Shown: positions 4,620-21,938 of the stretch, one piece after another | Numbering within the stretch: position 1 is the first letter of the stretch | How the letters are laid out: the number at the start of each line of letters is the position of its first letter | Source: Geodermatophilus tzadiensis | GTDB lineage: Bacteria > Actinomycetota > Actinomycetes > Mycobacteriales > Geodermatophilaceae | Reading direction: 5' to 3' | Length of the DNA stretch: 64,000 nucleotides | NCBI RefSeq assembly: GCF_003002915.1 | Contig: NZ_PVTG01000006.1 | Span: 62,001-126,000, forward strand | Notes under the pieces: model-generated | Databases searched by the model: none | The model's input: the letters and a program-made list of their open reading frames with translations, nothing else | Told to the model about the DNA's origin: nothing | Position numbers and translations under genes: made by a program

Positions 4620-5309
4620 ACCGACCCCGCCCCGCCCGTGCTGGGCTCGCTGACCTGGGTCCCCGCCGCCGACCGGCCCGACCTGCTCGGCGGGTCCGTG
4701 GCCGCCGCGCTGGCCGCGCTGCCCGGGCCGGCCTGGGTCGCCCCGGTCGACGACGCGCTCGCCGACACCGCCGCCTTCACCGACGCCTACGGGGTGCCGC
4801 TCGAGGCGTCGGCCAACTGCGTGGTCGTCGCCGCGCGCCGCGCCGGGCAGACCACGCTGGCCGCCTGCGTCGTGCTCGCCACCACCCGCGCCGACGTCAA
4901 CGGCCTGGTGCGGCGGCACCTGGGTGCGCGCAAGGCGTCCTTCGCCCCGCAGGACGTCGCCGTCGCCGAGTCCGGGATGGCCTACGGCGGCATCACGCCG
5001 ATCGGGCTGCCCGACGGGTGGCCGGTGCTCGTCGACGCCGCCGTGGCCGCCGCCGACCTCGTCGTCGTCGGCTCGGGCACGCGCGGCGCGAAGCTGGCCC
5101 TCCCCGGCTCCGCGCTGGCCGGGCTGGCCGCCGCGGAGGTGGTCGAGGGGCTGGGGCTCCCGGTGCAGGAGGCGTCGCCCCCGGCGCCGACGCTGCCGGC
5201 GGAGCGGGCACCCGACGACCGCGACGTGGGCTGGGGCGAGCGGCCCGACGAGCGCGACGCGGACCGTCGCTACCTGGAGGACCGGCCCCCGCACTGGGGC
5301 AGCGACTAG
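4617..5309 (+). CDS. YbaK/EbsC-like aminoacyl-tRNA deacylase with an acidic RPPHW tail
   Basis: A 230-residue protein. Residues ~15-185 carry the YbaK/ProX editing fold (ANCVVVAARRAGQTTLAACV, TTRADVNGLVRRHLGARKAS, YGGITPIGLPDGWPVLVD, VVVGSGTRGAKLALPG). Such proteins hydrolyse mischarged aminoacyl-tRNA in trans. The C-terminus adds ~35 polar residues (DRDVGWGERPDERDADRRYL, then RPPHWG) resembling a short stand-alone actinobacterial protein type. This looks like a domain fusion (inference). The GTG at 4617 lacks a Shine-Dalgarno sequence but has a CAGGAT -10-like box 7 nt upstream. The stop overlaps the convergent mscL end by 4 nt. Confidence 0.8.
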   Translation: MTDPAPPVLGSLTWVPAADRPDLLGGSVAAALAALPGPAWVAPVDDALADTAAFTDAYGVPLEASANCVVVAARRAGQTTLAACVVLATTRADVNGLVRRHLGARKASFAPQDVAVAESGMAYGGITPIGLPDGWPVLVDAAVAAADLVVVGSGTRGAKLALPGSALAGLAAAEVVEGLGLPVQEASPPAPTLPAERAPDDRDVGWGERPDERDADRRYLEDRPPHWGSD

Positions 5310-5614
5310 CGGGCCGGCGTCCCCGGACCGCCCGGAGCGGTGGCCAGCAGGTCGCGGATCTCGGCCAGCAGTTCGACCTGCGTGGGCGCCACCAGCCCGG
5401 GCTCCCCGCCCCGCGCCCGCCGCTCGGCGGTGCTGCGCAGCGGCAGGACCACGATGACGTACACGACAGCGGCGGTCAGCACGAAGGTCATCACCTGGCT
5501 GACGAACGCGTCGACGACCGCGGTGAACGCCGCACCGACGACCACGGCGACAGCCAGCTCGACCACGTTGCCGCGCAGCAGGAAGTCCTCGAAGCCCCTC
5601 GGCACGGCACTCAT
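5306..5614 (-). CDS. mscL: MscL-like mechanosensitive channel lacking the periplasmic loop
   Basis: A 102-residue protein; MscL is usually 130-150. The N-terminal helix and TM1 are intact (GFEDFLLRGNVVELAVAVVV, GAAFTAVVDAFV), as are the end of TM2 (AAVVYVIVVLPL) and the C-terminal cytoplasmic helix (QVELLAEIRDLLA). TM1 runs into TM2 at residues ~41-46 (QVMTFVLT), so ~35 residues covering the periplasmic loop and the start of TM2 are missing without a frameshift. Channel function is doubtful or altered. The ATG at 5614 is preceded by GTGAGGTG. It follows the SAF gene by 4 nt, in the usual actinobacterial fmdB-SAF-mscL order. Confidence 0.85.
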   Translation of the reverse strand: MSAVPRGFEDFLLRGNVVELAVAVVVGAAFTAVVDAFVSQVMTFVLTAAVVYVIVVLPLRSTAERRARGGEPGLVAPTQVELLAEIRDLLATAPGGPGTPAR

Positions 5615-5618
5615 CACC

Positions 5619-6230
5619 TCACGGCGGCCCCGGCAGGCTCAACGTGAGCGTGGCGGTGGTGGCGGCAGCGGCGAGAGTGGCGGCGGTGGCCTCGTCGACG
5701 GCGAGCACCAGCAGCCCGCCGTCGTCGCCCTGGGGCGCGGCCAGCACCGGCGCGGCCCGTGCGACCACCTCCGCCCGCGCCGCGCCCGGGGCGGTGGCCA
5801 GCACGTCGACGCGGTCGCCGGCGCCGGCCAGCCCGGCGACGGCGAGGTCGGCCAGCCGCACCGGCGCGGCCACCTGTCCCGCCGGCAGCGACGCGGTCAG
5901 GCCGGGGCCCACCAGGCGCACGTCGGTGACCGGCTCCCCGGCCCGCAGCGGCGCGGCGAGCACCCGGCCGGCGAGCGCGGCGGGGTCGGTGGCTGACCCG
6001 TCGGGGACGGCGCCGGCCGGCAGCTCGGTGGTCGCGAGCCCTGCCGTCGTCAGGACCGCGCCGGCGGGCAGGTCGGTGGCCGCGGTGACCACCGGCGTCC
6101 CGGGCGGCGGAGCAGCGGCCGGCGCGGGTGGTGGCCGCAGGGCGAGCACGAGCGCCCCGGTGACGAGCGCCGCGGCGAGGCAGCGGCGCAGCAGCAGGAC
6201 GGGGGAGCGGGGTCGGCGCAGGCGCGGCAC
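5619..6230 (-). CDS. SAF domain protein (CpaB/RcpC-like)
   Basis: A 203-residue protein with a short basic N-terminus, one membrane segment (CLAAALVTGALVLALRPP, residues ~15-32), an Ala/Pro linker and a SAF domain (TPVVTAATDLPAGAVLT, TTELPAGAVPDG, GRVLAAPLRAGEPVTDVRLV). The C-terminal half is CpaB/RcpC-like (VRLADLAVAGLAGAGDRVDV, VLATAPGAARAEVVARAAPV). CpaB proteins help assemble Flp pili, but no other pilus genes are nearby, so the role is open. The GTG at 6230 gives the expected signal-anchor start. It sits between fmdB and mscL on the same strand. Confidence 0.82.
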   Translation of the reverse strand: MPRLRRPRSPVLLLRRCLAAALVTGALVLALRPPPAPAAAPPPGTPVVTAATDLPAGAVLTTAGLATTELPAGAVPDGSATDPAALAGRVLAAPLRAGEPVTDVRLVGPGLTASLPAGQVAAPVRLADLAVAGLAGAGDRVDVLATAPGAARAEVVARAAPVLAAPQGDDGGLLVLAVDEATAATLAAAATTATLTLSLPGPP

Positions 6231-6315
6231 GCACCCAGGCTGGCCGCCGCGCACGCCCGGGAGGAGCTGTGCCGGGCGGCTGTGGACGGCGCGCCCGGCT
6301 GTGGACGCGCCCCCG

Positions 6316-6648
6316 TCAGGAGGCGGCGGCCTTCGACCCGCCCGAGGAGGACGACGACGAGGCGCTCGACGAGGTCGAGGCCGCCTCCTTCTTCGGCGCC
6401 GCCGTCGACGAGGACGACTCCGAGGAGGTCGAGGACGCCGGGGACGACTCCGAGGACGAGGCCGTCGAGCGGCTGTCCGTGCGGTAGAAACCCGAGCCCT
6501 TGAAGACGACGCCGACCGAGCCGTAGACCTTGCGCACCGTGGCGCCGCAGGTCGGGCACTCGGCCACGGGGGCGTCGGTGAAGGACTGCACGACCTCGAA
6601 CTCGTGCTTGCCCTCGGGGTTGGTGCAGGCGTACTGGTACGTGGGCAC
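6316..6648 (-). CDS. FmdB-family zinc-ribbon protein with Ser-rich tail
   Basis: A 110-residue protein. It starts PTYQYACTNPEGKHEFEVVQ and continues SFTDAPVAECPTCGATVRKV, the FmdB regulatory-type zinc ribbon. The usual first CxxCG pair is reduced to one Cys (CTNPEGKHEFE), while the second pair CPTC is intact. Zinc binding may therefore use a histidine or be weakened. Residues ~60-110 are a Ser/Glu/Ala-rich low-complexity tail. GTG 6648 follows a good AGGAGAACC Shine-Dalgarno. Its complement encodes an Asp/Glu-rich open frame that I regard as a shadow. Confidence 0.85.
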   Translation of the reverse strand: MPTYQYACTNPEGKHEFEVVQSFTDAPVAECPTCGATVRKVYGSVGVVFKGSGFYRTDSRSTASSSESSPASSTSSESSSSTAAPKKEAASTSSSASSSSSSGGSKAAAS

Positions 6649-6831
6649 GGCGGTTCTCCTGGTCGGGCAGGGGCGGGCGGGTCCGGCGCCCGCCGCGGGC
6701 TGGCACTCGGGACCCTCGACTGCCAATGATGCGACACGCCGCGCGTGCCGTCCACGCACTGTGACCCGTTCGCCGGTCCGCGTCGTCCAGCGGCCGCGCC
6801 GGGAGTGGCGGAACGGACCCGTACGCGCCGG

Positions 6832-6847
6832 TAACCTGCCGCGCGTG
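6832..6847 (+). promoter_or_regulatory. Leaderless -10 box (TAACCT) before the MarR gene
   Basis: TAACCT at 6832-6837 lies 7 nt before GTG 6845 with no Shine-Dalgarno sequence between them, consistent with a leaderless transcript. Confidence 0.5.
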
Positions 6848-7339
6848 ACACCGCCCTGGCTGGACGAGACGCAGCAGCGCGCCTGGCGGGCGTGGCTGAC
6901 CGCCGCGGAGCTGCTGCCGCGCGAGCTCGACGCCCAGCTGCAGCGCGACGCCGGGCTCACCCATGCCGCCTACGTCGTGCTCGCGATGCTGTCGGAGGCG
7001 CCGGGGCGCAGCCGCCGGATGAGCGACCTCGCGCGCCGGGCCAACCAGTCGCAGAGCCGGTTGTCGCACACGGTCGCCCGGCTGGAGGACCGCGGCTGGG
7101 TCCGCCGCGAGCGGTCCGCCGAGGACGGCCGCGGCAACCTCGCCGTCCTCACCGACGCCGGCTGGGACGTCGTCCGCTCGGTCGCCCCCGGGCACGTCGC
7201 CGCGGTGCGCGCCGCGCTGTTCGACCCGCTGACCGAGCAGCAGACGCAGGCGCTGTGCGAGGCGCTGGAGACCGTCGTCCAGGGCCTCGACCCCGACGCC
7301 AGCCGCCGGGTGGCGCACGGCAGCGACGTCGCCGGCTGA
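6845..7339 (+). CDS. MarR-family transcriptional regulator
   Basis: A 164-residue winged-helix regulator: an N-terminal dimerisation helix (DETQQRAWRAWLTAAELLPR), recognition helix region (MSDLARRANQSQSRLSHTVA, RLEDRGWVRRERS), the wing (EDGRGNLAVLTDAG) and C-terminal dimerisation helices. MarR proteins usually repress an adjacent or divergent gene until a phenolic or lipophilic ligand binds. Adjacent candidates are the VOC gene at 7379 on the same strand and divergent fmdB. The GTG at 6845 is preceded by TAACCT 7 nt upstream, suggesting leaderless translation. Confidence 0.9.
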   Translation: MTPPWLDETQQRAWRAWLTAAELLPRELDAQLQRDAGLTHAAYVVLAMLSEAPGRSRRMSDLARRANQSQSRLSHTVARLEDRGWVRRERSAEDGRGNLAVLTDAGWDVVRSVAPGHVAAVRAALFDPLTEQQTQALCEALETVVQGLDPDASRRVAHGSDVAG

Positions 7340-7365
7340 CCCTTCCCCGGGCGGTGGAGCGCGAC

Positions 7366-7381
7366 TAGGTTGCGCCCCGTG
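7366..7381 (+). promoter_or_regulatory. Leaderless -10 box (TAGGTT) before the VOC gene
   Basis: TAGGTT at 7366-7371 lies 7 nt before GTG 7379. It falls in the short gap after the MarR gene, so the VOC gene may have its own promoter. Confidence 0.45.
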
Positions 7382-7780
7382 GGAGCGCGACTGGCCGCCT
7401 ACCTGAGCTACCGCGACGCCCCGGCCGCCCTGCGCTGGCTGGAGGCCGTGGGCTTCACCGTCGTCCGGCGGGCCGACGCCGAGGACGGCACGGTCGCCCA
7501 CTCCGAGGTCCGCTGCGACGACGTCGTCCTCATGGTGGCGAGCTACGACGCCGACTACACCCGGCCGCCGCTGGTCGGGCACTCCACGGGCTCGGGCCTC
7601 TACCTGGTGCTCGACGACGCGGCCGACGTCGACGACCGCTTCGCGCGCGGGGTGGACGCCGGCGGCACCGCCGTCCTCGCCCCGCAGGACACCGAGTGGG
7701 GCACCCGCCGCGCCCGCCTGCTCGACCCCGAGGGTCAGGAGTGGAGCTTCGGGACCTACGCCCCCGGCGGCACCTGGTAG
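7379..7780 (+). CDS. VOC family / bleomycin-resistance-like protein
   Basis: A 133-residue glyoxalase-fold protein (LAAYLSYRDAPAALRWLEAV, VGFTVVRRADAEDG, VAHSEVRCDDVVLMVAS, SGLYLVLDDAADVDDRF, WGTRRARLLDPEGQEWSFGT). It resembles PhnB/YdeN-type VOC proteins that bind small ligands or antibiotics. Substrate and metal use are not evident. GTG 7379 was preferred over the in-frame TTG 7370 because the TAGGTT -10-like box ends 7 nt upstream of it. It directly follows the MarR gene and may be its target or partner. Confidence 0.82.
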   Translation: MGARLAAYLSYRDAPAALRWLEAVGFTVVRRADAEDGTVAHSEVRCDDVVLMVASYDADYTRPPLVGHSTGSGLYLVLDDAADVDDRFARGVDAGGTAVLAPQDTEWGTRRARLLDPEGQEWSFGTYAPGGTW

Positions 7781-7786
7781 TCGGGC

Positions 7787-7888
7787 GTGCCCGACGCCGC
7801 GCAGGTGTCCTGCCCCGACCGGGCGGCCTGGCGGCGGTGGCCGGAGCAGCACGCAGCCGCCTCGGGCGGGGTGTGGCCGGTGTTCGAC
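7787..7888 (+). pseudogene. N-terminal remnant of a YdeI/OmdA-family gene
   Basis: From GTG 7787 the first ~34 codons read PDAAQVSCPDRAAWRRWPEQ then HAAASGGVWPVF. This matches the start of YdeI/OmpD-associated proteins, where a conserved KK motif and catalytic-like region should follow. After residue 34 the similarity stops (DTGPSARRGILVRP) and the usual EALCFGWVDS segment is absent. The gene seems truncated by a deletion between here and the CoA-transferase end at 8009. The frame remains open because of high GC, not because it is coding. Confidence 0.55.
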
Positions 7889-7977
7889 ACGGGCCCCTCG
7901 GCCCGCCGCGGGATCCTCGTCCGACCTCACCGCAGCGTGTCCCACCGGACCGCCCACCGTCGGGGAGGACGCGCGAC

Positions 7978-7994
7978 GATCAGGTCACCTGATC
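7978..7994. promoter_or_regulatory. 17-bp perfect palindrome, operator-like
   Basis: GATCAGGT-C-ACCTGATC is a perfect inverted repeat with 8-bp arms. It is unusually AT-rich for this sequence and lies between the truncated YdeI remnant and the 3' end of the CoA-transferase gene. It looks like a dimeric repressor site left without its gene, but no regulator is adjacent. Confidence 0.4.
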
Positions 7995-8008
7995 ATCGCC
8001 GCGACCGC

Positions 8009-9187
8009 TCAGGAGGCCAGCCAGGCGCGGATGGCCTCGTCGGACCCGCCCAGCACCGGCGGTGCTCCGTGGTCGCGGCGCGTCGTCTCGGTCTCGCCGT
8101 CGGGACCCGGGGCGAAGAAGCGCAGCGGGGGACCGGGCAGCTGCACCCGGCCCAGCGTCGCGTGCTCGACGTCGACGAGCAGGCCCTGCGACAGCGTCTG
8201 CTCCCAGCCGTAGACCTCGTCGATCGTGCGCACCCTGCCCGCGGGGACGCCGGCCGCGGCCAGCCGGGCGAGCAGGGTCTCGGCGTCGGTGTCGGCGAAG
8301 ACGCCCTCGAGCAGCTCGATCACCCGCTGCCGGTTGCCCACCCGCTCGCCGTTGGTCGCCAGGCCCTCGGCCTCGGGGTCCAGGCCGAACTCGGCGCACA
8401 GCCGCCGCCACAGCCCCTCCGACCCGCAGGAGAGCTGCACGCTGCCGCCCCGGCAGTGGAACAGGCCGTAGGGCGCGATCGAGGGGTGGTGGTTGCCCTG
8501 CGCGCGGCCGACCTGCCCGCCGACGGTCCACGCCGTCCCCTGGAAGGCGTGCACGCCGACGATCGCGGCCAGCAGCGAGGTGCGCACCACCTGGCCGCGG
8601 CCGGTGCGCTCCCGCTCGTGCAGCGCGGCGAGCACGCCGTAGGCGCCGTACATGCCGGCCAGCAGGTCGCCGATCGGCACGCCGACCCGCTGCGGGTCTT
8701 CCGGGCCGGGGCCGGTGAGCGACATCAGCCCGGCCTCGCCCTGCGCGATCTGGTCGTAGCCGGCCCGGCTGCCCTCGGGCCCGTCGTGGCCGAAGCCGCT
8801 GATCGAGAGGGTGACCAGGCGCGGGTTGAGCTCGGCGAGCACGTCGGTGCCGAAGCCGAGGCGGGCCAGCGTGCCGGGGCGGAAGTTCTCCAGGAGGACG
8901 TCGGCCCGCCGCACCAGCTCGCGCAGCAGTTCCTTGTCGCCCTCGTCCTTGAGGTCGAGGGTCACCGACTCCTTGTTGCGGTTGGCCGACAGGAAGTAGG
9001 TCGACTCCCGCGCACCCTGGTCGGGCTGCACGAACGGCGGGCCCCACCCGCGGGTGTCGTCCCCGCTGCCGGGGTTCTCCACCTTGATCACCCGGGCGCC
9101 GAGGTCACCGAGCATCATCGCCGCGTGCGGGCCGGCCAGCGCGCGGGTCAGGTCGACGACGAGCACGCCGTCCAGCGGTCCGGTCAC
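8009..9187 (-). CDS. CaiB/BaiF family (class III) CoA-transferase
   Basis: A 392-residue family III CoA-transferase. It starts PLDGVLVVDLTRALAGPHAA with GDLGARVIKVENPGSGDDTR, and contains RADVLLENFRPGTLARLG, SISGFGHDG, the catalytic-Asp segment GYDQIAQGEAGLMSLTG, and a C-terminal VPAGRVRTIDEV. These enzymes move CoA between carboxylic acids, such as formyl/oxalyl, succinyl/malate or carnitine pairs. The gene follows the MatC-like transporter by 18 nt on the same strand, so import and CoA activation of the same dicarboxylate is a reasonable inference. Start GTG 9187. The substrate is unresolved. Confidence 0.9.
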   Translation of the reverse strand: MTGPLDGVLVVDLTRALAGPHAAMMLGDLGARVIKVENPGSGDDTRGWGPPFVQPDQGARESTYFLSANRNKESVTLDLKDEGDKELLRELVRRADVLLENFRPGTLARLGFGTDVLAELNPRLVTLSISGFGHDGPEGSRAGYDQIAQGEAGLMSLTGPGPEDPQRVGVPIGDLLAGMYGAYGVLAALHERERTGRGQVVRTSLLAAIVGVHAFQGTAWTVGGQVGRAQGNHHPSIAPYGLFHCRGGSVQLSCGSEGLWRRLCAEFGLDPEAEGLATNGERVGNRQRVIELLEGVFADTDAETLLARLAAAGVPAGRVRTIDEVYGWEQTLSQGLLVDVEHATLGRVQLPGPPLRFFAPGPDGETETTRRDHGAPPVLGGSDEAIRAWLAS

Positions 9188-9205
9188 GACAGCCCTCCCG
9201 GGGTC

Positions 9206-10585
9206 TCAGAGCCAGCCGGGGACGACGAAGACCAGCCAGGCCAGGAACGGCCCGACGACCACGACGATCCCGGAGTAGGCGAGGATCTGCTTGTAGAAGC
9301 GGTCCCGGTCGACGTCCTGCGCGTTGGCCAGCACCAGCGCGCCGTTGGTCGAGAACGGGCTCACGTCGACGATCGTCGAGGCGACCGACAGGGCCACCAC
9401 CACGCCCACCGCGCCGATCGAGCCCTCCTGCAGGAAGGGCACCGCCAGCGCGATGGCGACGCCGATGATCGCCGTCGACGACGCGAAGGCCGACACCACC
9501 CCGCCGATGTAGGCCAGCAGCAGCGCGATGAGCAGCGGCGCGCCCAGCCCGATGACCGCCTCGCCCACGTAGTCGATCGTCCCGGCCTCCTGCAGCACGA
9601 ACACGAAGGTCAGCACGCCGGCGATGAGCAGCACCGTGGACCAGCTGATCTGGCTGACCGCGCCCTTGTGCCGGGCGGCGGCGAACAGCGCCAGCACCGT
9701 GGCCACGGTGATCGAGACGAAGCCGATGTCGAGGTCGAACACCAGCGCCAGGACGGCGACCACCGCCAGCCCGACGAGGGTGAGGACCTGGTCGAGGGTG
9801 ACCCGCTGGGGGCGCTCCGGCCCGCCGTCCCGGTCGCCGCCGCCGTCGCTGCCCCGGTCGCCGTCCCCGCCGCCGACGGCCGGCCCGGGCGGGGCGCCGT
9901 GTCCGCGCACGGGTGCGGTCACCGCGTGCTCGGCGTCGGCGTGCGCGGCCTCGGCCGGCACGGTCGCGCTCACCCGGCGGCCGATCAGCTGCCGGCCGCC
10001 GAGGACGAGGAAGAGGGCCAGCGCGATGGCCAGGTTGAAGACCAGGCTGCCCAGGAACACCGTGACCGGGCTGCTGGGCAGCCCCTCGTCCTCGACGATC
10101 GTGTTCACCGTGACGCCGTAGACGCTGATCGGGGAGAACCCGCCGCCCTGCGCGCCGTGGATGACCATCATGCCCATGAGCAGGGGGTTGATCCCGTAGC
10201 GGGCGGCGAAGCCCAGCGCGATCGGGGCGATGATCGCCACCGCGGCGGGGGAGAGCGCGCCAATCGCGGTCAGCAGGGCGGTGACGGCGAACATCACCCA
10301 CGGGATGGCGGCCACGTATCCGCCGACCAGGCGCAGCGCGCCGCGCACCAGCAGGTCGACGGTGCCGTTGTTCTGCGCGATCGCGAACAGGTAGGTGACG
10401 CCGATCAGCGTCACCACCAGCTCGGCGGGGAAGCCGGCCAGGATGTCGTCGGTGGACAGCCCCACGGAGAGCGTGCCCACGAGGAACGCGGCGACGAACG
10501 CCAGGGCGCCCATGTTGATCGGCAGGAACGTCGCGATCGCGAAGATCACGACGAGCGCCAGGATGGTGACGATCTCCGGTGACAC
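9206..10585 (-). CDS. SLC13/MatC-type dicarboxylate permease
   Basis: A 459-residue membrane protein with about 11-12 helices. The N-terminal half (VSPEIVTILALVVIFAIATF, INMGALAFVAAFLVGTLSVG, ALSPAAVAIIAPIALGFAA) matches the MatC-N dicarboxylate carrier region. A central cytoplasmic loop of ~60 residues rich in Gly/Asp/Arg separates the halves. The C-terminal half includes GGVVSAFASSTAIIGVAIAL and VDVSPFSTNGALVLANA. It probably imports malonate or another dicarboxylate. GTG 10585 has a GGGAGG Shine-Dalgarno 5 nt upstream. It is the first gene of an operon with the CoA-transferase. Confidence 0.85.
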   Translation of the reverse strand: MSPEIVTILALVVIFAIATFLPINMGALAFVAAFLVGTLSVGLSTDDILAGFPAELVVTLIGVTYLFAIAQNNGTVDLLVRGALRLVGGYVAAIPWVMFAVTALLTAIGALSPAAVAIIAPIALGFAARYGINPLLMGMMVIHGAQGGGFSPISVYGVTVNTIVEDEGLPSSPVTVFLGSLVFNLAIALALFLVLGGRQLIGRRVSATVPAEAAHADAEHAVTAPVRGHGAPPGPAVGGGDGDRGSDGGGDRDGGPERPQRVTLDQVLTLVGLAVVAVLALVFDLDIGFVSITVATVLALFAAARHKGAVSQISWSTVLLIAGVLTFVFVLQEAGTIDYVGEAVIGLGAPLLIALLLAYIGGVVSAFASSTAIIGVAIALAVPFLQEGSIGAVGVVVALSVASTIVDVSPFSTNGALVLANAQDVDRDRFYKQILAYSGIVVVVGPFLAWLVFVVPGWL

Positions 10586-10623
10586 GCGGCCTCCCTGTCT
10601 CTCCGGCGGGTCGGCCCACCGTG

Positions 10624-11217
10624 TCACCTACCGGCGGGTAGGGCCTCCCAGCCGCCGGCCGGGGTGACGACGGCGCTGACCGGGCGGTCGTGGTCGAGCG
10701 CGGGCAGCCGGTCGACGAGTTCGTCGTCGAAGACCAGCGCCACCACGACGGCGTCGCGCCGCACGTGCTGCAGCGCCCGGTCGTAGTAGCCGCCGCCCCG
10801 GCCCAGCCGCGTGCCCGCCCGGTCGACGGCGAGCGCGGGGACGACGACGACCTCCGCGGCGCCGATCGCCGTCGGCCCCAGGCGCGGCCCGACCGGCTCG
10901 AGCAGCCCGAAGCGGCCCGGCGCGAGCCGGCCGGTGTCGACCGCCCAGTGCAGCTGCGGGTCGCCGCCGGGGACCACCGGCAGCAGCACCCGCGCGCCGA
11001 GCTGGGTGAACGCGGCCGGCAGCCGGCCGTGGCCCGGCTCGGTCTCGTCGGGGACGAAGGCCGCGAGCGTGCGCACCCGCGCCAGCTGCCGCAGCAGGGC
11101 GGTGGCGACCGCGGCCGACGCCGTCGCGCGTTCGGTGGGGGAGCGGTCCCGGCGGCGGGCCCAGACCCGCTCGCGCAGCGCCGCCTTCACCGGGTCGACG
11201 TCCTGCGGGGCGGTCAC
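10624..11217 (-). CDS. 5-formyltetrahydrofolate cyclo-ligase
   Basis: A 197-residue enzyme that converts 5-formyl-THF to methenyl-THF using ATP. It has KAALRERVWARRRDRSP, FVPDETEPG, the C-terminal phosphate/folate motif LGRGGGYYDRAL, VALVFDDELVDRLP, and ends in an HDRPVSAVVTP-like tail. In many actinobacteria this gene is followed by fmdB, SAF and mscL, facing galU. Here that order is interrupted by the CoA-transferase/MatC and MarR/VOC genes, suggesting an insertion of about 4 kb. GTG start at 11217. Confidence 0.92.
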   Translation of the reverse strand: MTAPQDVDPVKAALRERVWARRRDRSPTERATASAAVATALLRQLARVRTLAAFVPDETEPGHGRLPAAFTQLGARVLLPVVPGGDPQLHWAVDTGRLAPGRFGLLEPVGPRLGPTAIGAAEVVVVPALAVDRAGTRLGRGGGYYDRALQHVRRDAVVVALVFDDELVDRLPALDHDRPVSAVVTPAGGWEALPAGR

Positions 11218-15442: not shown

Positions 15443-15458
15443 TCACCCGGTCGGGTGA
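15443..15458. promoter_or_regulatory. TCACCCG-GT-CGGGTGA inverted repeat
   Basis: A perfect 7-bp inverted repeat sits about 18 nt before the sigma28-like -35 element of the SipW operon, a position suited to an activator or repressor. Similar CACCC/GGGTG arms occur near several exopolysaccharide genes. Confidence 0.35.
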
Positions 15459-15474: not shown

Positions 15475-15503
15475 CTCATGGCTCGCGCCGGGACGCCCGA
15501 TGC
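15475..15503 (+). promoter_or_regulatory. Sigma28 (FliA/WhiG)-like promoter of the SipW operon
   Basis: CTCATGG (from 15475) and GCCCGATGC (15495-15503) have the same spacing as CTCAAGT and GGCCGATG upstream of the two downstream paralogues: 21 nt from TCAT/TCAA to CCGAT. The match is weaker than in those two copies. Confidence 0.4.
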
Positions 15504-15557
15504 CTGCTGTGTCCAGCACGCAGACCCCTCTGCGTCCCCTCACGTGAAGGAGGCATC

Positions 15558-16211
15558 GTGCGCGTCTCCCTGCGCCGCGGTCGCCGATCCGTGCTGGCCG
15601 GCGCGGTCCCCGTGGGTCTGGTGCTGAGCATGGCGCTCACCTGGAGCTCGACCCACGCGGCCTTCTCGGCCAGCACGGCCAACCCGGGCAACTCCTGGCA
15701 GACCGGCAGCGTCGCGCTGGCCGACAACGACAGCAACACGGCCCTGTTCCAGAGTGCCGTCGAGACCGGCCTCGTCCCCGGTGCCACGAGGTCCCGCTGC
15801 ATCCGCCTCGACTACACCGGCGACGTCCCCGCCGACATCCGGATGTACGTCGGCACGCCGGCCGGCGGCGCCACCACCCTGGACGGCTACCTCGTGATGA
15901 GCGTGGAGCGCGGGCAGAACGTGACCGCGTCGACCACGGTGGCGCCGGACTGCACCGCCGGGTTCACCCAGAACGCCACCCGGACGTTCCTGTTCAACAC
16001 CCGGCAGGCCAACGACCCCCTCGCCGACCAGGCGGCCACGCTCACCGCGCTGCGCACCCGCGCCGACTACACCACCGGGCTGTCGCTGGGCACCCCGGTC
16101 GCCCCGGGCACGTCGCTGACCCTGCGCATCTCCTACCTGGTCAAGGACGACAACAACGCGCAGCGGTCCCGCTCCGACGCCACCATCACGTGGGAAGCGC
16201 GCAACACGTGA
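15558..16211 (+). CDS. TasA/camelysin-like SipW-dependent secreted protein
   Basis: A 217-residue exported protein. A basic N-terminus (VRVSLRRGRRSVLAG) is followed by a hydrophobic core and the SipW-type processing region SSTHAAFSASTANPGNSW. The mature part (VALADNDSNTALFQS, LVPGATRSRCIRLDYTG, ARTRADYTTG-like region, SYLVKDDNNAQ) resembles TasA/CalY fibre-forming proteins and shares a pattern with the protein at 16896. Its stop overlaps the signal peptidase start (GTGA), so substrate and peptidase are coupled. GTG 15558 has an AAGGAGG Shine-Dalgarno. It probably forms extracellular matrix fibres (inference). Confidence 0.8.
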   Translation: MRVSLRRGRRSVLAGAVPVGLVLSMALTWSSTHAAFSASTANPGNSWQTGSVALADNDSNTALFQSAVETGLVPGATRSRCIRLDYTGDVPADIRMYVGTPAGGATTLDGYLVMSVERGQNVTASTTVAPDCTAGFTQNATRTFLFNTRQANDPLADQAATLTALRTRADYTTGLSLGTPVAPGTSLTLRISYLVKDDNNAQRSRSDATITWEARNT

Positions 16212-16813
16212 CCACGCCTCCCGCTCCCTCGTGGCCGGCCCGGGCGGCGGCCACCGCCCGGATCGCCGTCGCGGTCGTCCTGGTGGCCCTCGCCGGCCTC
16301 GGTGTCCTGGCCCTGGCGCCCCGGCTCGTCGGCTTCGAGGGCCACGTGGTGGTCTCCGGCTCGATGGCACCGCAGCTCGCCGAGGGCGACGTGGTGCTGA
16401 CCCGGCCGGTCGCCGTGCCGGACCTCGAGTCGGGGCAGATCCTGCTGTTCCCCGACCCCTCGGGGGCCGACCGGCTCGTGGTGCACCGGCTGGTGTCCTT
16501 CGACGAGCAGGGCGCCCTGGTCACCCGGGGCGACGCCAACCAGAGCAACGACACCACGCACGTGCCGGCGGCCAGCGTCATCGGCCAGGTGCAGCTGCGG
16601 GTGCCCTACATCGGCCTCCCCGCGTACTGGCGGGCCGAGGGCCGGTGGGGCCCGATCGCGGCGACCGCCGTCCTGCTCGCCGCGGCCGCCGTCGTCGCCG
16701 CCGGCCGGTCCGGCGGCGGCCGGGGCCGCACCACCGCCGACCGCGCCCCCGCACCGCGGGGCCGCACCACCGCCGACCGGCTCGGCGCCCCGGTCGCGGG
16801 CACCGCCGGCTGA
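16208..16813 (+). CDS. Archaeal/ER-type (SipW-like, S26B) signal peptidase I
   Basis: A 201-residue membrane peptidase. It has an N-terminal helix (IAVAVVLVALAGLGVLALAP), catalytic-Ser box VVSGSMAPQLAEGD (~residues 49-62), RLVVHRLVSF (~90-99) with His in place of the bacterial general-base Lys, and VTRGDANQSND (~106-116) with the conserved Asp. A C-terminal helix (IAATAVLLAAAAVVAAG) and basic tail follow. The His variant defines the SipW/ER type that processes TasA-like substrates. GTG 16208 overlaps the substrate gene stop. It is the likely processing enzyme for all four exported proteins of the island. Confidence 0.92.
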   Translation: MTTPPAPSWPARAAATARIAVAVVLVALAGLGVLALAPRLVGFEGHVVVSGSMAPQLAEGDVVLTRPVAVPDLESGQILLFPDPSGADRLVVHRLVSFDEQGALVTRGDANQSNDTTHVPAASVIGQVQLRVPYIGLPAYWRAEGRWGPIAATAVLLAAAAVVAAGRSGGGRGRTTADRAPAPRGRTTADRLGAPVAGTAG

Positions 16814-16895
16814 CCCGTCGCCCGCCCCGCTCAACAACCGCGCCCCGGAGCCGATGACACCAGGAGGCCGGTACCGCGCCGGGGAGGAGGACAGC

Positions 16896-17941
16896 GTGCG
16901 CCGAGCACCGCAGACCGCTCCCCGGCGTGCCACCGGCGGCGGCCGCGTCGCCGCCTGGCTGGTCGGCGCCGCCCTGTTCGCCGCCCTCGCCGCCGAGGGG
17001 CTGCCGGTCGGCACCACCCCCGCGGCCGCCGGCACCAGCGCGGTCAGCCTGGTCGACGACCGCGGCGGCGCCGCGCTGTTCCGCTCCACCGGCCTGACCC
17101 CCGGGCGCACCGAGACCGCCTGCGTCGCCCTCGCGGTCACCGGGTCGGCCGAGTCGCTCGGCGAGGTCGAGCTCAGCGCCACGGGCACCGGCGGCGACCT
17201 CGCCCCGTACCTGCGGGTCGGCATCGAGGCCGGCACCCTCGCCGACCCGGCCCGGTGCGCCACCTTCACGGGCGTCCCCGTCTGGAGCGGGACGCTCGCC
17301 GAGGTGCCCACCGACGCCACCGCCGGCATCCCGACGGGCTGGCGGCCGGACGCGGCGTCCCGGGCCGTCTTCCGGCTCACCGTCTCCGTCCCCGACGACC
17401 CCCGGGCGCAGGGCCGCCGCGCCGCGGCCACCTTCGTCTGGGCGCTCGACGTCGAACCCCACCCGCCGGCACCGGAGCCGACCCCGGAGCCCACGCCGTC
17501 CGCGGTCCCGGCCCGCACGCCGGTGCCGCCACCGGAACCCACGCCCACGCCGACGCCCACCCCGGAGCCGACGCCGGAGGTGCTCCCCGTGCCTCCGCCG
17601 GAGCCGACCCCCACCCCGGAGGTCCCGAGCCCGACGCCGTCGCCGCCGGACGACCCGCCGCGGACCGGTGACGTCGTCCAGGCCGAGCCGCTGGCGGCCC
17701 CGCCGGCGACGGTCGCCGAGGCGGTCGCCGAGGCGGTCGCGGAGGTGGCCGCCGCGGTGGGGGAGACCGCGGTCGCCGTGGCCCAGGACGGCCAGTTCCC
17801 CCTCGCGCTGGTGGGCGGGGTGGTCGGCTTCCTCTTCGTCCAGGGCCGGCTCGACCAGCGGGACCCCAAGCTGGCGCTGGCCCGGGTCAGCTCCGACGTG
17901 CACGACTTCCAGGACTTCCCCCGAACGCCGAGGACCACGAC

Positions 17942-17945
<4 letters not shown>
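16896..17945 (+). CDS. TasA-like surface protein with Pro/Thr/Glu stalk and C-terminal membrane anchor
   Basis: A 349-residue protein. An export signal (VAAWLVGAALFAALAAEG) precedes a TasA-like domain (SAVSLVDDRGGAALFRSTG, LTPGRTETACVALAVTG, LRVGIEAGTL) that parallels the protein at 15558. Residues ~190-260 form a PEPTPEPTP-type stalk. An Ala/Val helix and a C-terminal membrane segment (FPLALVGGVVGFLFVQG) end in a charged cytoplasmic tail. The layout suggests a surface anchor for the fibre (inference). GTG 16896 has a GGGGAGGAGG Shine-Dalgarno; ATG 16854 in frame would lengthen the N-terminus. Its stop overlaps the cyclase start (ATGA). Confidence 0.78.
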
Positions 17946-19591
<1,646 letters not shown>

Positions 19592-19600
19592 GCGCCGGCA

Positions 19601-19626
19601 CGGGTCCTCCCTCCGGGGAGGGCCCG
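19601..19626 (+). terminator. 11-bp hairpin after the cyclase gene
   Basis: CGGGTCCTCCC pairs with GGGAGGGCCCG (one G-U pair) around a TCCG tetraloop, 9 nt after the cyclase stop. It probably ends the SipW operon just before the next promoter. Confidence 0.6.
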
Positions 19627-19637
19627 TGCAGCGGCCG

Positions 19638-19666
19638 CTCAAGTCGGCAGGGTCCGCGGCCGATGC
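19638..19666 (+). promoter_or_regulatory. Sigma28 (FliA/WhiG)-like promoter, paralogue A
   Basis: CTCAAGT (19638-19644) and GGCCGATG (19658-19665) agree with the FliA/WhiG consensus TAAA-N15-GCCGATAA; 15 nt separate TCAAG from GCCGAT. It is repeated almost exactly before the next paralogue. Confidence 0.6.
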
Positions 19667-19713
19667 ACCGTCGAGGACCCCCGCCACCGGGCGGGACCGG
19701 ACGGAGGACGGCG

Positions 19714-20754
19714 ATGACACGGTCGAGGCGCCCGCGGCGGCTGCCCCGCCACGCGCTCGCCGCCGTCGTCAGCGCCCTGGCCCTCCTGGCCCTGACGGTG
19801 CTGCTGCCCGGCGCCTCCGCGCGGTTCACCGCGGTGACCGGCAACCCGGCCGGCGCCTGGGCCACCGACGGCGTGGCCCCTCCGACCGGGCTGACGGCGG
19901 TCCAGACCTGCACCCGGACGCCCATCACGTTCCGCGGTGCCGCCTCGTCGACGAGCCAGTCACCACTCACCCTCAGCCCTCCCGCCACGACCCAGGTGGG
20001 CGACGTCCTGGTGGCCCAGGTCTCCTACTACGGGGCCTCGACGATCAGCGCGACCGGCGACTGGACCCTCCTGTTCACGGACACGAGCGGCGGACTCGTG
20101 ACCTCCGCCGTCTACCACAAGGTCGCCACGGGCACCGACACCGCGACCTTCACCCGTCCCGAGTCCAGCCCCGGGGACATGGTGGGCGGGATCCTCGCCT
20201 ACGGCGGCGTCGACCGGAGCAGCCCCGTCGCCGTCTCCGCCCGGGTCACGAGTGCCGGTGAGACGGCCACCCTGCCGGCGGTGACGACGACGGTGAAGGA
20301 CACGATGGTCGTGTACCTCCTGGCCAAGCGGGTCGCGCCGTTCCCGACGCCGGGGGGCCTCCGGGAACGCTGGAAGCTCAGCTCCGACAGCGAGGGCGTC
20401 ACCGCGGCGGACGAGTCCTTCGTCGGGCCGGGGACGACACCGTCCCGCTCCACCGCGCTGGCCGGCTCCACCACCGAGTACGTCGCCCAGACGATCGCCC
20501 TGCGTCCCGTGCCCCCCGTGGTCGAGGCGTCCCTGTCCTGGACGGCCAGCCCCAGCACGTGGGCGACCGGCTACCGCCTCGAGCGCAGCTCCGGCGGCAC
20601 GGTGCAGTCGACCCGGTCGATCACGCCGGTGGAGACGACGTCCGCCACCGAGGGGCCGCTGGTCAACGGCACCGCGTACTCCTTCCGCCTGTGGGCCCAC
20701 CGCGGCACCTGGACCTCCAGCGTGGTCACCGCGCCGCTGACGCCCTCCTGCTGA
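19714..20754 (+). CDS. SipW-type secreted protein, paralogue A
   Basis: A 346-residue exported protein with signal RRLPRHALAAVVSALALLAL and SipW-type processing motif ASARFTAVTGNPAGAW. A variable central beta-rich domain (residues ~60-265) includes VGDVLVAQVSYYG and VGGILAYGGVDRSSPV, which resemble the start and middle of a galactose-binding-like or collagen-binding surface fold; the family is not certain. The last ~75 residues (LSWTASPSTWATGYRLERSS, TAYSFRLWAHRGTWTSSVVT) look like an FN3-type module and are practically identical to paralogue B. It ends in Cys. ATG 19714 follows GGAGGACGGCG. It has its own sigma28-like promoter. Confidence 0.8.
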   Translation: MTRSRRPRRLPRHALAAVVSALALLALTVLLPGASARFTAVTGNPAGAWATDGVAPPTGLTAVQTCTRTPITFRGAASSTSQSPLTLSPPATTQVGDVLVAQVSYYGASTISATGDWTLLFTDTSGGLVTSAVYHKVATGTDTATFTRPESSPGDMVGGILAYGGVDRSSPVAVSARVTSAGETATLPAVTTTVKDTMVVYLLAKRVAPFPTPGGLRERWKLSSDSEGVTAADESFVGPGTTPSRSTALAGSTTEYVAQTIALRPVPPVVEASLSWTASPSTWATGYRLERSSGGTVQSTRSITPVETTSATEGPLVNGTAYSFRLWAHRGTWTSSVVTAPLTPSC

Positions 20755-20761
20755 CGCCGCC
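20526..20761 (+). repeat. 236-bp direct repeat (copy 1) over the C-terminal module
   Basis: This block is identical to 21703-21938 except for two adjacent bases (20733-20734). It covers the FN3-like end, the stop codon and a few bases beyond. Upstream, the two genes are clearly diverged, which points to gene conversion or a recent cassette duplication. Confidence 0.9.
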
Positions 20762-20776
20762 CCACCTCCCTCGGCT

Positions 20777-20793
20777 CCTCCCTCCGGGGGAGG
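20777..20793 (+). terminator. CCTCCC/GGGAGG hairpin after paralogue A
   Basis: A short hairpin lies in the same place as the cyclase-gene terminator, just before the second sigma28-like promoter; the outer part of the stem is less well paired. Confidence 0.45.
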
Positions 20794-20806
20794 GCCCGCA
20801 CGGCCG

Positions 20807-20835
20807 CTCAAGTCGGCCCGGGGCGCGGCCGATGG
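20807..20835 (+). promoter_or_regulatory. Sigma28 (FliA/WhiG)-like promoter, paralogue B
   Basis: CTCAAGT and GGCCGATG occur with the same 15-nt spacing as the promoter at 19638. Bases between the boxes differ (GGCAGGGTCC versus GGCCCGGGGC), so the two boxes themselves appear conserved. Confidence 0.6.
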
Positions 20836-20881
20836 ACGGCGAGGACCCCGCCACCGGGCGGGACCCGGACGGAGGACGGCG

Positions 20882-21931
20882 ATGACACGGTCGAGGCGCC
20901 CGCGGCGGCTGCCCCGCCGCGCGCTTGCCGCCACCGCCGGCGCCCTCGCCCTCCTGGTCCTCACGGTGGTGTTCCCCGGCGCCTCCGCGCGGTTCACAGC
21001 GGTGACGGCCAACCCCGCCGGTGTCTGGACCACCGACGGCGTGGCGGCGCCGACCGGCTTCTCGGCGGCCACGGCCTGCGTGACCACACCCATCGTCTTC
21101 CGTGACGTGACGACCGCCACCGGCACCGAGGTGCTCACGCTGCCGGTCCCCGCCGGCACGGCGGCCGGCGACCTGCTGGTGGTCCACATCACCCACAACT
21201 GGACCGGGGCGCCCTTCAGCACCCCTGCCGGGTGGACCCACGTCCGCACCGACAGCAGCGGGAACGCGATCATCTCCGCCCTCTACTGGAAGAAGGCGGC
21301 GGGGGAGTCGAGCGCGACGTTCAGCTTCCCCACGGGCAGCTCCGTCAGGATGGGCGGCGCCCTGGCGGCCTACACCGGCGCCGACACCACCACGCCCGTC
21401 GACGCCCACACCGGCCAGGCCGGCACCGGGACGACGGCCACCACCCCCGCGGTGACCACCGCGACCGCCGGCACCCTGGTGCTGCGGTTGATCAGCCACG
21501 CCGCCCAGCCCTCCCCGGCGCCGACCGGCACGACCCCGCGGTGGGCCGTCGGCCCGGTGTCCGGCCTGGGCGGGTACAGCGCCGGCGAGGAGCAGGTCGC
21601 CGGCGCCGGTCCGGTGTCCTCCCGGTCCTCGCCGTCGACCGGGACCTCAGCGGCCTGGGTGGGGCAGACGGTGGCGCTGCGGCGGGCCCCCGGCACGCCG
21701 TCGGCGTCCCTGTCCTGGACGGCCAGCCCCAGCACGTGGGCGACCGGCTACCGCCTCGAGCGCAGCTCCGGCGGCACGGTGCAGTCGACCCGGTCGATCA
21801 CGCCGGTGGAGACGACGTCCGCCACCGAGGGGCCGCTGGTCAACGGCACCGCGTACTCCTTCCGCCTGTGGGCCCACCGCGGCACCTGGACCTCCAGCGT
21901 GGTCACCGCCTCGCTGACGCCCTCCTGCTGA
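20882..21931 (+). CDS. SipW-type secreted protein, paralogue B
   Basis: A 349-residue tandem paralogue of the protein at 19714. The first ~12 residues (MTRSRRPRRLPR) and the last ~75 are nearly identical. The signal and processing region ASARFTAVTANPAGVW is closely similar, while the centre (AAGDLLVVHITHNWTGAPFS, MGGALAAYTGADTTTPVDAH) keeps the same plan with much divergence. It ends TPSC like its sister. It should be exported and cut by the SipW peptidase. The constant-variable-constant layout suggests variation of a surface-exposed middle domain (inference). Confidence 0.8.
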   Translation: MTRSRRPRRLPRRALAATAGALALLVLTVVFPGASARFTAVTANPAGVWTTDGVAAPTGFSAATACVTTPIVFRDVTTATGTEVLTLPVPAGTAAGDLLVVHITHNWTGAPFSTPAGWTHVRTDSSGNAIISALYWKKAAGESSATFSFPTGSSVRMGGALAAYTGADTTTPVDAHTGQAGTGTTATTPAVTTATAGTLVLRLISHAAQPSPAPTGTTPRWAVGPVSGLGGYSAGEEQVAGAGPVSSRSSPSTGTSAAWVGQTVALRRAPGTPSASLSWTASPSTWATGYRLERSSGGTVQSTRSITPVETTSATEGPLVNGTAYSFRLWAHRGTWTSSVVTASLTPSC

Positions 21932-21938
21932 CGCCGCC
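21703..21938 (+). repeat. 236-bp direct repeat (copy 2) over the C-terminal module
   Basis: Second copy of the block at 20526-20761, offset by 1177 bp, with two adjacent mismatches. It could mediate deletion or exchange between the two genes. Confidence 0.9.

Follow-up and report, generated by a model that had tools for sequence, protein, structure and literature searches.

The tapA-sipW-tasA operon of Bacillus subtilis, which is under SinR/SlrR control, offers the first comparison for a six-gene island of Geodermatophilus tzadiensis, a member of a desert soil genus, located in the 64,000-nucleotide (nt) stretch of DNA analysed here, hereafter the window. The likeness lies in a signal peptidase of the endoplasmic reticulum (ER) type encoded beside a secreted substrate, SubA, whose structural model is closest to TasA; a role in the matrix is assumed here. 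In contrast to the B. subtilis operon, no TapA homologue was identified in the island, which adds a TasA-like membrane protein with a proline (Pro) stalk and a tail, a co-translated diguanylate cyclase and extra substrates of the FN3 type, and which carries sigma28-type promoters.

Among archaeal filaments, the bundling pili of Pyrobaculum calidifontis (7ueg) and the Sulfolobus 0406 filament (7pnb) are built of beta-sandwich pilins that match SubA weakly in structure (Z about 5). Their hosts belong to a different domain of life from that of the island, and we know of no SipW-cyclase operon for either of them.

On the regulatory side, the nearest comparison is WhiG and RsiG, the latter an anti-sigma factor that depends on cyclic di-GMP (c-di-GMP). 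In Rubrobacter, WhiG-type (flagellar-type) promoters precede pilus genes and genes for diguanylate cyclases and phosphodiesterases (PMC8325347). The genome studied here likewise encodes WhiG and a twin-motif RsiG, with flagellar-type promoters before surface-appendage and c-di-GMP genes; its putative targets are a SipW/TasA island, whereas those of the described system are type IV pili. Flagellar-type sigma factors also act in the spore and zoospore stages of Actinoplanes missouriensis, which has three FliA-family factors (PMC13293333) and for which no SipW/TasA-cyclase island is described in the papers found. Our literature search on SipW/TasA in Actinobacteria returned no description of such a system. 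As argued below, we lean, at slightly better than an even chance, towards the reading that the island encodes surface fibres of the TasA type, with the membrane anchor and the diguanylate cyclase as a receptor-transducer pair, and is transcribed from sigma28-family promoters.

Gene organization of the island

Coordinates are positions in the window, and all six genes lie on the plus strand:

15558-16211, +, subA, TasA-like secreted substrate (on its AlphaFold2 model matches) with processing region HAAFSASTANPG
16208-16813, +, sipW, ER/archaeal-type signal peptidase of the Ser-His class (TIGR02228; SGSM and VHR motifs)
16896-17945, +, stalk gene: TasA-like ectodomain, Pro-rich stalk, C-terminal membrane helix and cytoplasmic tail DQRDPKLALARV
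17942-19591, +, membrane diguanylate cyclase: about six transmembrane segments, a GAF-like region and a GGDEF domain with RxxD-N5-GGEEF
19714-20754, +, parE, secreted protein with SipW-type processing region ARFTAVTGNPAG and FN3/Ig-like beta-sandwich domains
20882-21931, +, parF, paralogue of parE; the processing region is common to both

The start of sipW overlaps the end of subA by 4 nt (GTGA), and that of the cyclase gene overlaps the end of the stalk gene by 4 nt (ATGA). Read directly from the sequence, the six genes, both overlaps and the 82-nt gap between sipW and the stalk gene lie where an earlier note, made from the letters of this DNA, had placed them. The assignment of the signal peptidase to the ER/archaeal type also holds, since in a profile search SipW scored 70.9 bits against TIGR02228 (cut-off, 51.85) and contains SGSM and VHR. 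Its best solved relatives are SEC11C and SEC11A, eukaryotic SEC11 subunits, and it falls below the equivalog model of Bacillus SipW, NF046067 (48.5 bits; cut-off, 190). The ARFTAxTxNPAG processing region that the earlier note had described in the two downstream proteins is present in ParE and ParF, and subA carries a related region, AFSASTANPG. The overall description is supported: the island is compact, actinobacterial and of the SipW/TasA type, and it includes a cyclase gene and promoters of the flagellar type.

Conservation of the gene order

Conservation of the gene order in relatives had been set beforehand as the test that might refute this description; when it was run, the order proved to be kept. 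Ten other Geodermatophilus genomes have the succession subA-sipW-stalk-cyclase, followed in most cases by one or two par genes; it lies beside tRNA-Ala and between galU-moeA-rimJ and, in most, ech-pmt-rsmI; the type strain G. obscurus G-20T is a carrier (locus L026). In Modestobacter, the order from subA to the cyclase gene is retained without par genes. In two sister-genus genomes, one of them Blastococcus litoris, the whole set occurs elsewhere, after ndk (L157, L158); this different location indicates that the block stands as an independent unit. Family f2 (L036, L161) shows the order TasA-like protein, sipW, stalk and cyclase, while in family f14 (L033), Pilimelia and Paractinoplanes the stalk-cyclase unit and the SipW unit are adjacent in divergent orientation. 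An order-level search with the stalk model matched 103 of 399 genomes, many of them in the Pro-rich part only, so that full-length orthologues are far fewer. The island is almost certainly a conserved unit, and its arrangement is not due to chance.

Promoters and the choice of sigma factor

The predicted sigma28-type promoter sites (at 15475, 16830, 19638 and 20807) lie where the earlier note had put them and are listed here with a conserved palindrome:

15443-15458, no strand assigned, operator-like palindrome TCACCCGGTCGGGTGA just upstream of the subA promoter, at a conserved place
15475-15502, +, sigma28-type promoter of subA-sipW, CTCA...GCCCGATG, position conserved in orthologous islands
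16830-16855, +, sigma28-type promoter of stalk-cyclase, CTCA-N16-GCCGAT, found in each of 17 orthologous regions
19638-19664, +, sigma28-type promoter of parE, CTCAAGTC-N13-GCCGAT; CTCAAGTC also lies upstream of the flagellin gene
20807-20833, +, sigma28-type promoter of parF, CTCAAGTC-N13-GCCGAT

We searched the upstream regions of orthologous genes for the pattern CTCA-N16/17-G[CT]CGA[TA], taking the expectation from dinucleotide shuffles. The pattern precedes the stalk gene in every region (17/17; expected, 0.02), the par genes in 12 of 16 and subA in 9 of 15, where 0.01-0.02 were expected. It was found before none of 16 GGDEF genes and none of eight sipW genes, as expected for genes internal to operons. 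The window's own subA promoter, whose -10 element reads GCCCGAT with one extra C relative to GCCGAT, is left out of the nine. The ATG at 16854 opens the longest stalk frame and falls within the -10 element of the stalk promoter (AGCCGATGAC); for this reason the GTG at 16896, which gives the 82-nt gap, is the likely start of the stalk gene.

The palindrome TCACCCGGTCGGGTGA occupies the same place, 16-18 nt 5′ of the subA -35 element, in all 11 island-bearing Geodermatophilus genomes, and in seven of them it is the sole copy in the genome at one mismatch or fewer. In genomes without the island, it precedes unrelated genes. A BldD site was considered and rejected: the half-sites are similar and the spacing is different.

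In the whole genome, CTCA-N16/17-GCCGAT occurs at 23 sites, compared with six for the reversed control. Gene context was read in selected genome stretches. Beyond the island, intergenic copies stand in front of a gene run resembling FlbD-motA-motB-fliL and of genes for a PilZ protein, another GGDEF protein and a GAF-like protein. A 1197-residue secreted FN3-repeat-like protein with an ASFADP SipW-like signal lies behind CTCAACA...GCCGAT (L070, G000:C2:93000-106000, 5142-8735), the flagellin gene has CTCAAGTC...GGCCGTAA in its upstream region, and comparable sites stand before additional SipW-type substrates in relatives. Several sites lie inside genes and are probably due to chance. Judged by these neighbours, the island promoters seem to be part of a regulon for motility, c-di-GMP and surface proteins. 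Two further loci were observed. At L075 (G000:C17:38000-50000, 4733-6320), a PilZ protein and a response regulator are encoded behind a sigma28-like site, and the PilZ protein might act as a c-di-GMP effector within this regulon. In G. obscurus (L117, G024:C1:4915000-4930000), divergent sigma28-like sites separate an operon with glycosyltransferase and exosortase-like genes from two genes for small secreted proteins with SipW-like signals.

Two sigma factors could serve these promoters. The gene for WhiG (284 bits; closest solved sigma factor, 6pfj) is flanked by an xerC-like and an M23-peptidase-like gene, while that for a FliA-like sigma adjoins the flagellin gene. RsiG matches PF22802 twice, and both E(X)3S(X)2R(X)3Q(X)3D motifs are present (EVNLSYTRRLLQGRLD and EGQLSERRRGVQQVMD); the twin-motif form has been reported in 16 of 16 Geodermatophilaceae (PMC8325347). 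One rival explanation agrees with our own in all except the feedback and sigma step: FliA alone would serve the promoters, WhiG-RsiG would act elsewhere, and c-di-GMP would exert no feedback. This falls only a little short of an even chance. In its favour, the FliA-like gene lies beside flagellin, and the regions upstream of parE, parF and flagellin are alike. On the other hand, WhiG shares the flagellar promoter specificity of FliA (PMC8325347) and is present together with RsiG, and the spacing, 16 at the stalk promoter and 17 at flagellin, does not discriminate between the two. We hold only tentatively, at a chance still further below even, that the island is controlled through WhiG-RsiG rather than FliA. 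With WhiG as the factor, RsiG could allow the cyclase to act back on the promoter that drives it; with FliA, the island would simply be timed with the flagella. The flagellar-type promoters, from which the earlier note drew a possible tie to motility, are supported; the sigma28-family factor in charge may be WhiG, governed by c-di-GMP through RsiG, and not FliA alone.

SubA and the secreted substrates

In the window and in relatives, subA adjoins the gene of the SipW-type peptidase (in the window, by the 4-nt overlap). The three top solved matches of the SubA AlphaFold2 model (predicted local distance difference test, pLDDT, 65) are all TasA structures, crystal and fibre: 5of2 (Z, 8.4), 5of1 (8.3) and 8aur (6.7). 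The next unrelated fold scores 6.2, and a Z of 8 is near background. Foldseek placed TasA at rank 2 and the Pyrobaculum bundling pili at rank 11. Distant SubA homologues brush the camelysin/TasA models weakly, with a best E-value of 3.3e-4 to PF12389 and matches in three of 14 members; in the genome itself, PF12389 has no match anywhere, and a sequence search of the PDB with SubA gave no direct match to TasA. SubA is itself a relative of the stalk protein's head, with which it shares about 25-35% identity (E-values of 1e-4 to 1e-8). Taken together, the modelled structure makes a fair but not strong case for a TasA-like fold in SubA, and a fibre of the TasA type is, in our estimation, moderately probable.

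It is rather unlikely that the island makes no fibres at all and that SubA, the stalk protein and the Par proteins are instead monomeric adhesins of the surface or zoospore coat, processed by SipW and made in the motile phase under FliA. In favour of adhesins, the ParE model (pLDDT, 84) consists of successive FN3/Ig-like beta sandwiches, and the par promoters share CTCAAGTC with flagellin, sigma28 sites standing also before motAB. Loci encoding the tail of the stalk protein (see below) occur in addition in Pilimelia, Spirilliplanes and Paractinoplanes, which are zoosporic or motile-spore genera. Against this explanation stand the SubA model, whose nearest fold is that of TasA, and the strong amyloid production reported for G. 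obscurus G-20T (PMC3035280).

The 3′ ends of parE (20526-20732) and parF (21703-21909) share an identical run of 207 bp, the remainder of the proteins being about 56-58% identical; this points to recent gene conversion. A second SubA-like/SipW pair is present in the same genome (L032, G000:C11:133000-152000, about 8603-10704), with no orthologue of the stalk tail or the cyclase found beside it, and pairs related to it occur in other Geodermatophilus genomes (L030, L031).

The stalk tail and its putative membrane partner

The stalk protein had been taken for a wall anchor. Its C-terminus, read from the protein, consists instead of a membrane helix followed by DQRDPKLALARVSSDVHDFQDFPRTPRTTT, and no wall-sorting signal of the LPXTG sortase type is found there. 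After the helix, the cytoplasmic tail conforms to a conserved consensus, D-R/Q-R-D-P-K-L-A (DRRDPKLALAPV-like). The co-translated cyclase was correctly described as intact: its GGDEF domain matches PF00990 with 152.2 bits, and the active site and the I-site are both complete (RLGD-N5-GGEEF; GG[DE]EF and RxxD as RLGDVVARYGGEEF).

Scanning the genome contigs of 84,980 species with two conserved peptides, we found 25 relatives, which range from Geodermatophilaceae to Micromonosporaceae genera, Kineococcus, metagenome-assembled genomes (MAGs) of Frankiaceae and one Solirubrobacteraceae MAG. In nearly all of them, the gene 3′ of the tail gene overlaps it by 4 nt, and its product is a membrane-GGDEF protein from the subfamily of the island's cyclase. 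The ectodomains vary, with a TasA-like head and Pro stalk in some, a short linker in others, and Ig-like ectodomains of about 1,200-2,400 residues at L165, L203, L204, L206 and L208. The output varies as well: at L207 and L210 (about 5540-8110), the partner is a membrane-GAF histidine kinase ending in HisKA_3 and HATPase_c, and at both loci the membrane/GAF half is kept (for L210, with 29% identity over 381 residues). In a receptor-transducer pair, one expects ectodomain and output to be exchanged in this way while the tail and the membrane half stay constant.

The remaining explanation, an ordinary SipW/TasA matrix operon in which the cyclase is a general biofilm output and the tail anchors without signalling, is improbable: c-di-GMP, like SipW/TasA, is a classic element of biofilms, and co-expression alone could explain the conserved order, but the tail-cyclase pair also occurs with the Ig-like and short-linker proteins that lack a TasA-like domain, and a kinase replaces the cyclase at some tail loci, so that the pair looks like a fibre-independent unit. 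As judged from the sequences, the chances are evenly balanced that the stalk protein and the cyclase form a surface-protein/transducer pair, signalling through the tail and used here by a TasA-type fibre. The presence of the cyclase in the island is as the earlier note had it; rather than a general output towards biofilm formation, the cyclase is better read as the putative dedicated partner of the tail protein. Together, tail and transducer may represent a signalling module of a new kind.

Proposed mechanism and points against it

In the fibre system with a receptor-transducer pair that we favour, SubA and the Par proteins would be exported by Sec and trimmed by SipW near the AxFxAxTxNP region, after which mature SubA would polymerise as TasA does. 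The TasA-like head of the stalk protein would dock to or cap the fibre, with the Pro stalk spanning the wall, and the D-R/Q-R-D-P-K-L-A tail would contact the membrane/GAF half of the cyclase, so that the status of the fibre or surface would set c-di-GMP. Transcription would depend on a sigma28-family factor; if this is WhiG, high c-di-GMP would lead RsiG to sequester it, closing a negative feedback. The broadest form of the proposal is a new actinobacterial outside-in module, in which a tailed surface protein of any architecture is paired with a membrane-GAF transducer (cyclase or kinase), and which here would sense the condition of a TasA-type fibre and deliver c-di-GMP to an RsiG-WhiG switch driving the fibre genes. 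In this full form it is doubtful.

Several observations weigh against the proposed system. SubA of the window has no match to the TasA/camelysin models of Pfam and NCBIfam (PF12389 and NF046066), and its match to the TasA fold lies at the edge of the level reached by unrelated folds (pLDDT, 65; Foldseek E-value, 0.02). Two tail loci, L163 and L209, have no adjacent transducer, and genomes of high GC content often show 4-nt overlaps. Flagellin, WhiG and the FliA-like sigma are present in 26 of 26 Geodermatophilus genomes, among which no member without flagella keeps the island, and sequence alone therefore cannot choose the sigma factor. Finally, the island is missing from some Geodermatophilus genomes, and so is not essential to the genus.

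Implications for Geodermatophilus biology

The putative fibre part of the island is a variant of the known SipW/TasA kind. G. obscurus G-20T has been reported to produce remarkable extracellular functional amyloid in a test with the WO2 antibody, and the genome paper names no protein for it (PMC3035280). The island is a good candidate for its source and would, if this is true, supply the candidate genes. The genus has also been described as alternating between a motile zoospore R-form and a thalloid aggregate C-form, but other workers failed to observe motile cells (PMC3035280). The likely role of the island is in the switch between motile zoosporic and aggregating thalloid forms, of which it is a possible control point.

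No assigned function for the RsiG of Geodermatophilaceae was found in the literature; the proposed circuit, if true, would give the RsiG-WhiG switch a biological role in this family. Beyond it, the tail-transducer pair would be a general route for Gram-positives to report surface structures to intracellular signalling. For Geodermatophilus, the island would represent a candidate control circuit for the change from motile zoospore to sticky thallus, tying swimming to clumping.

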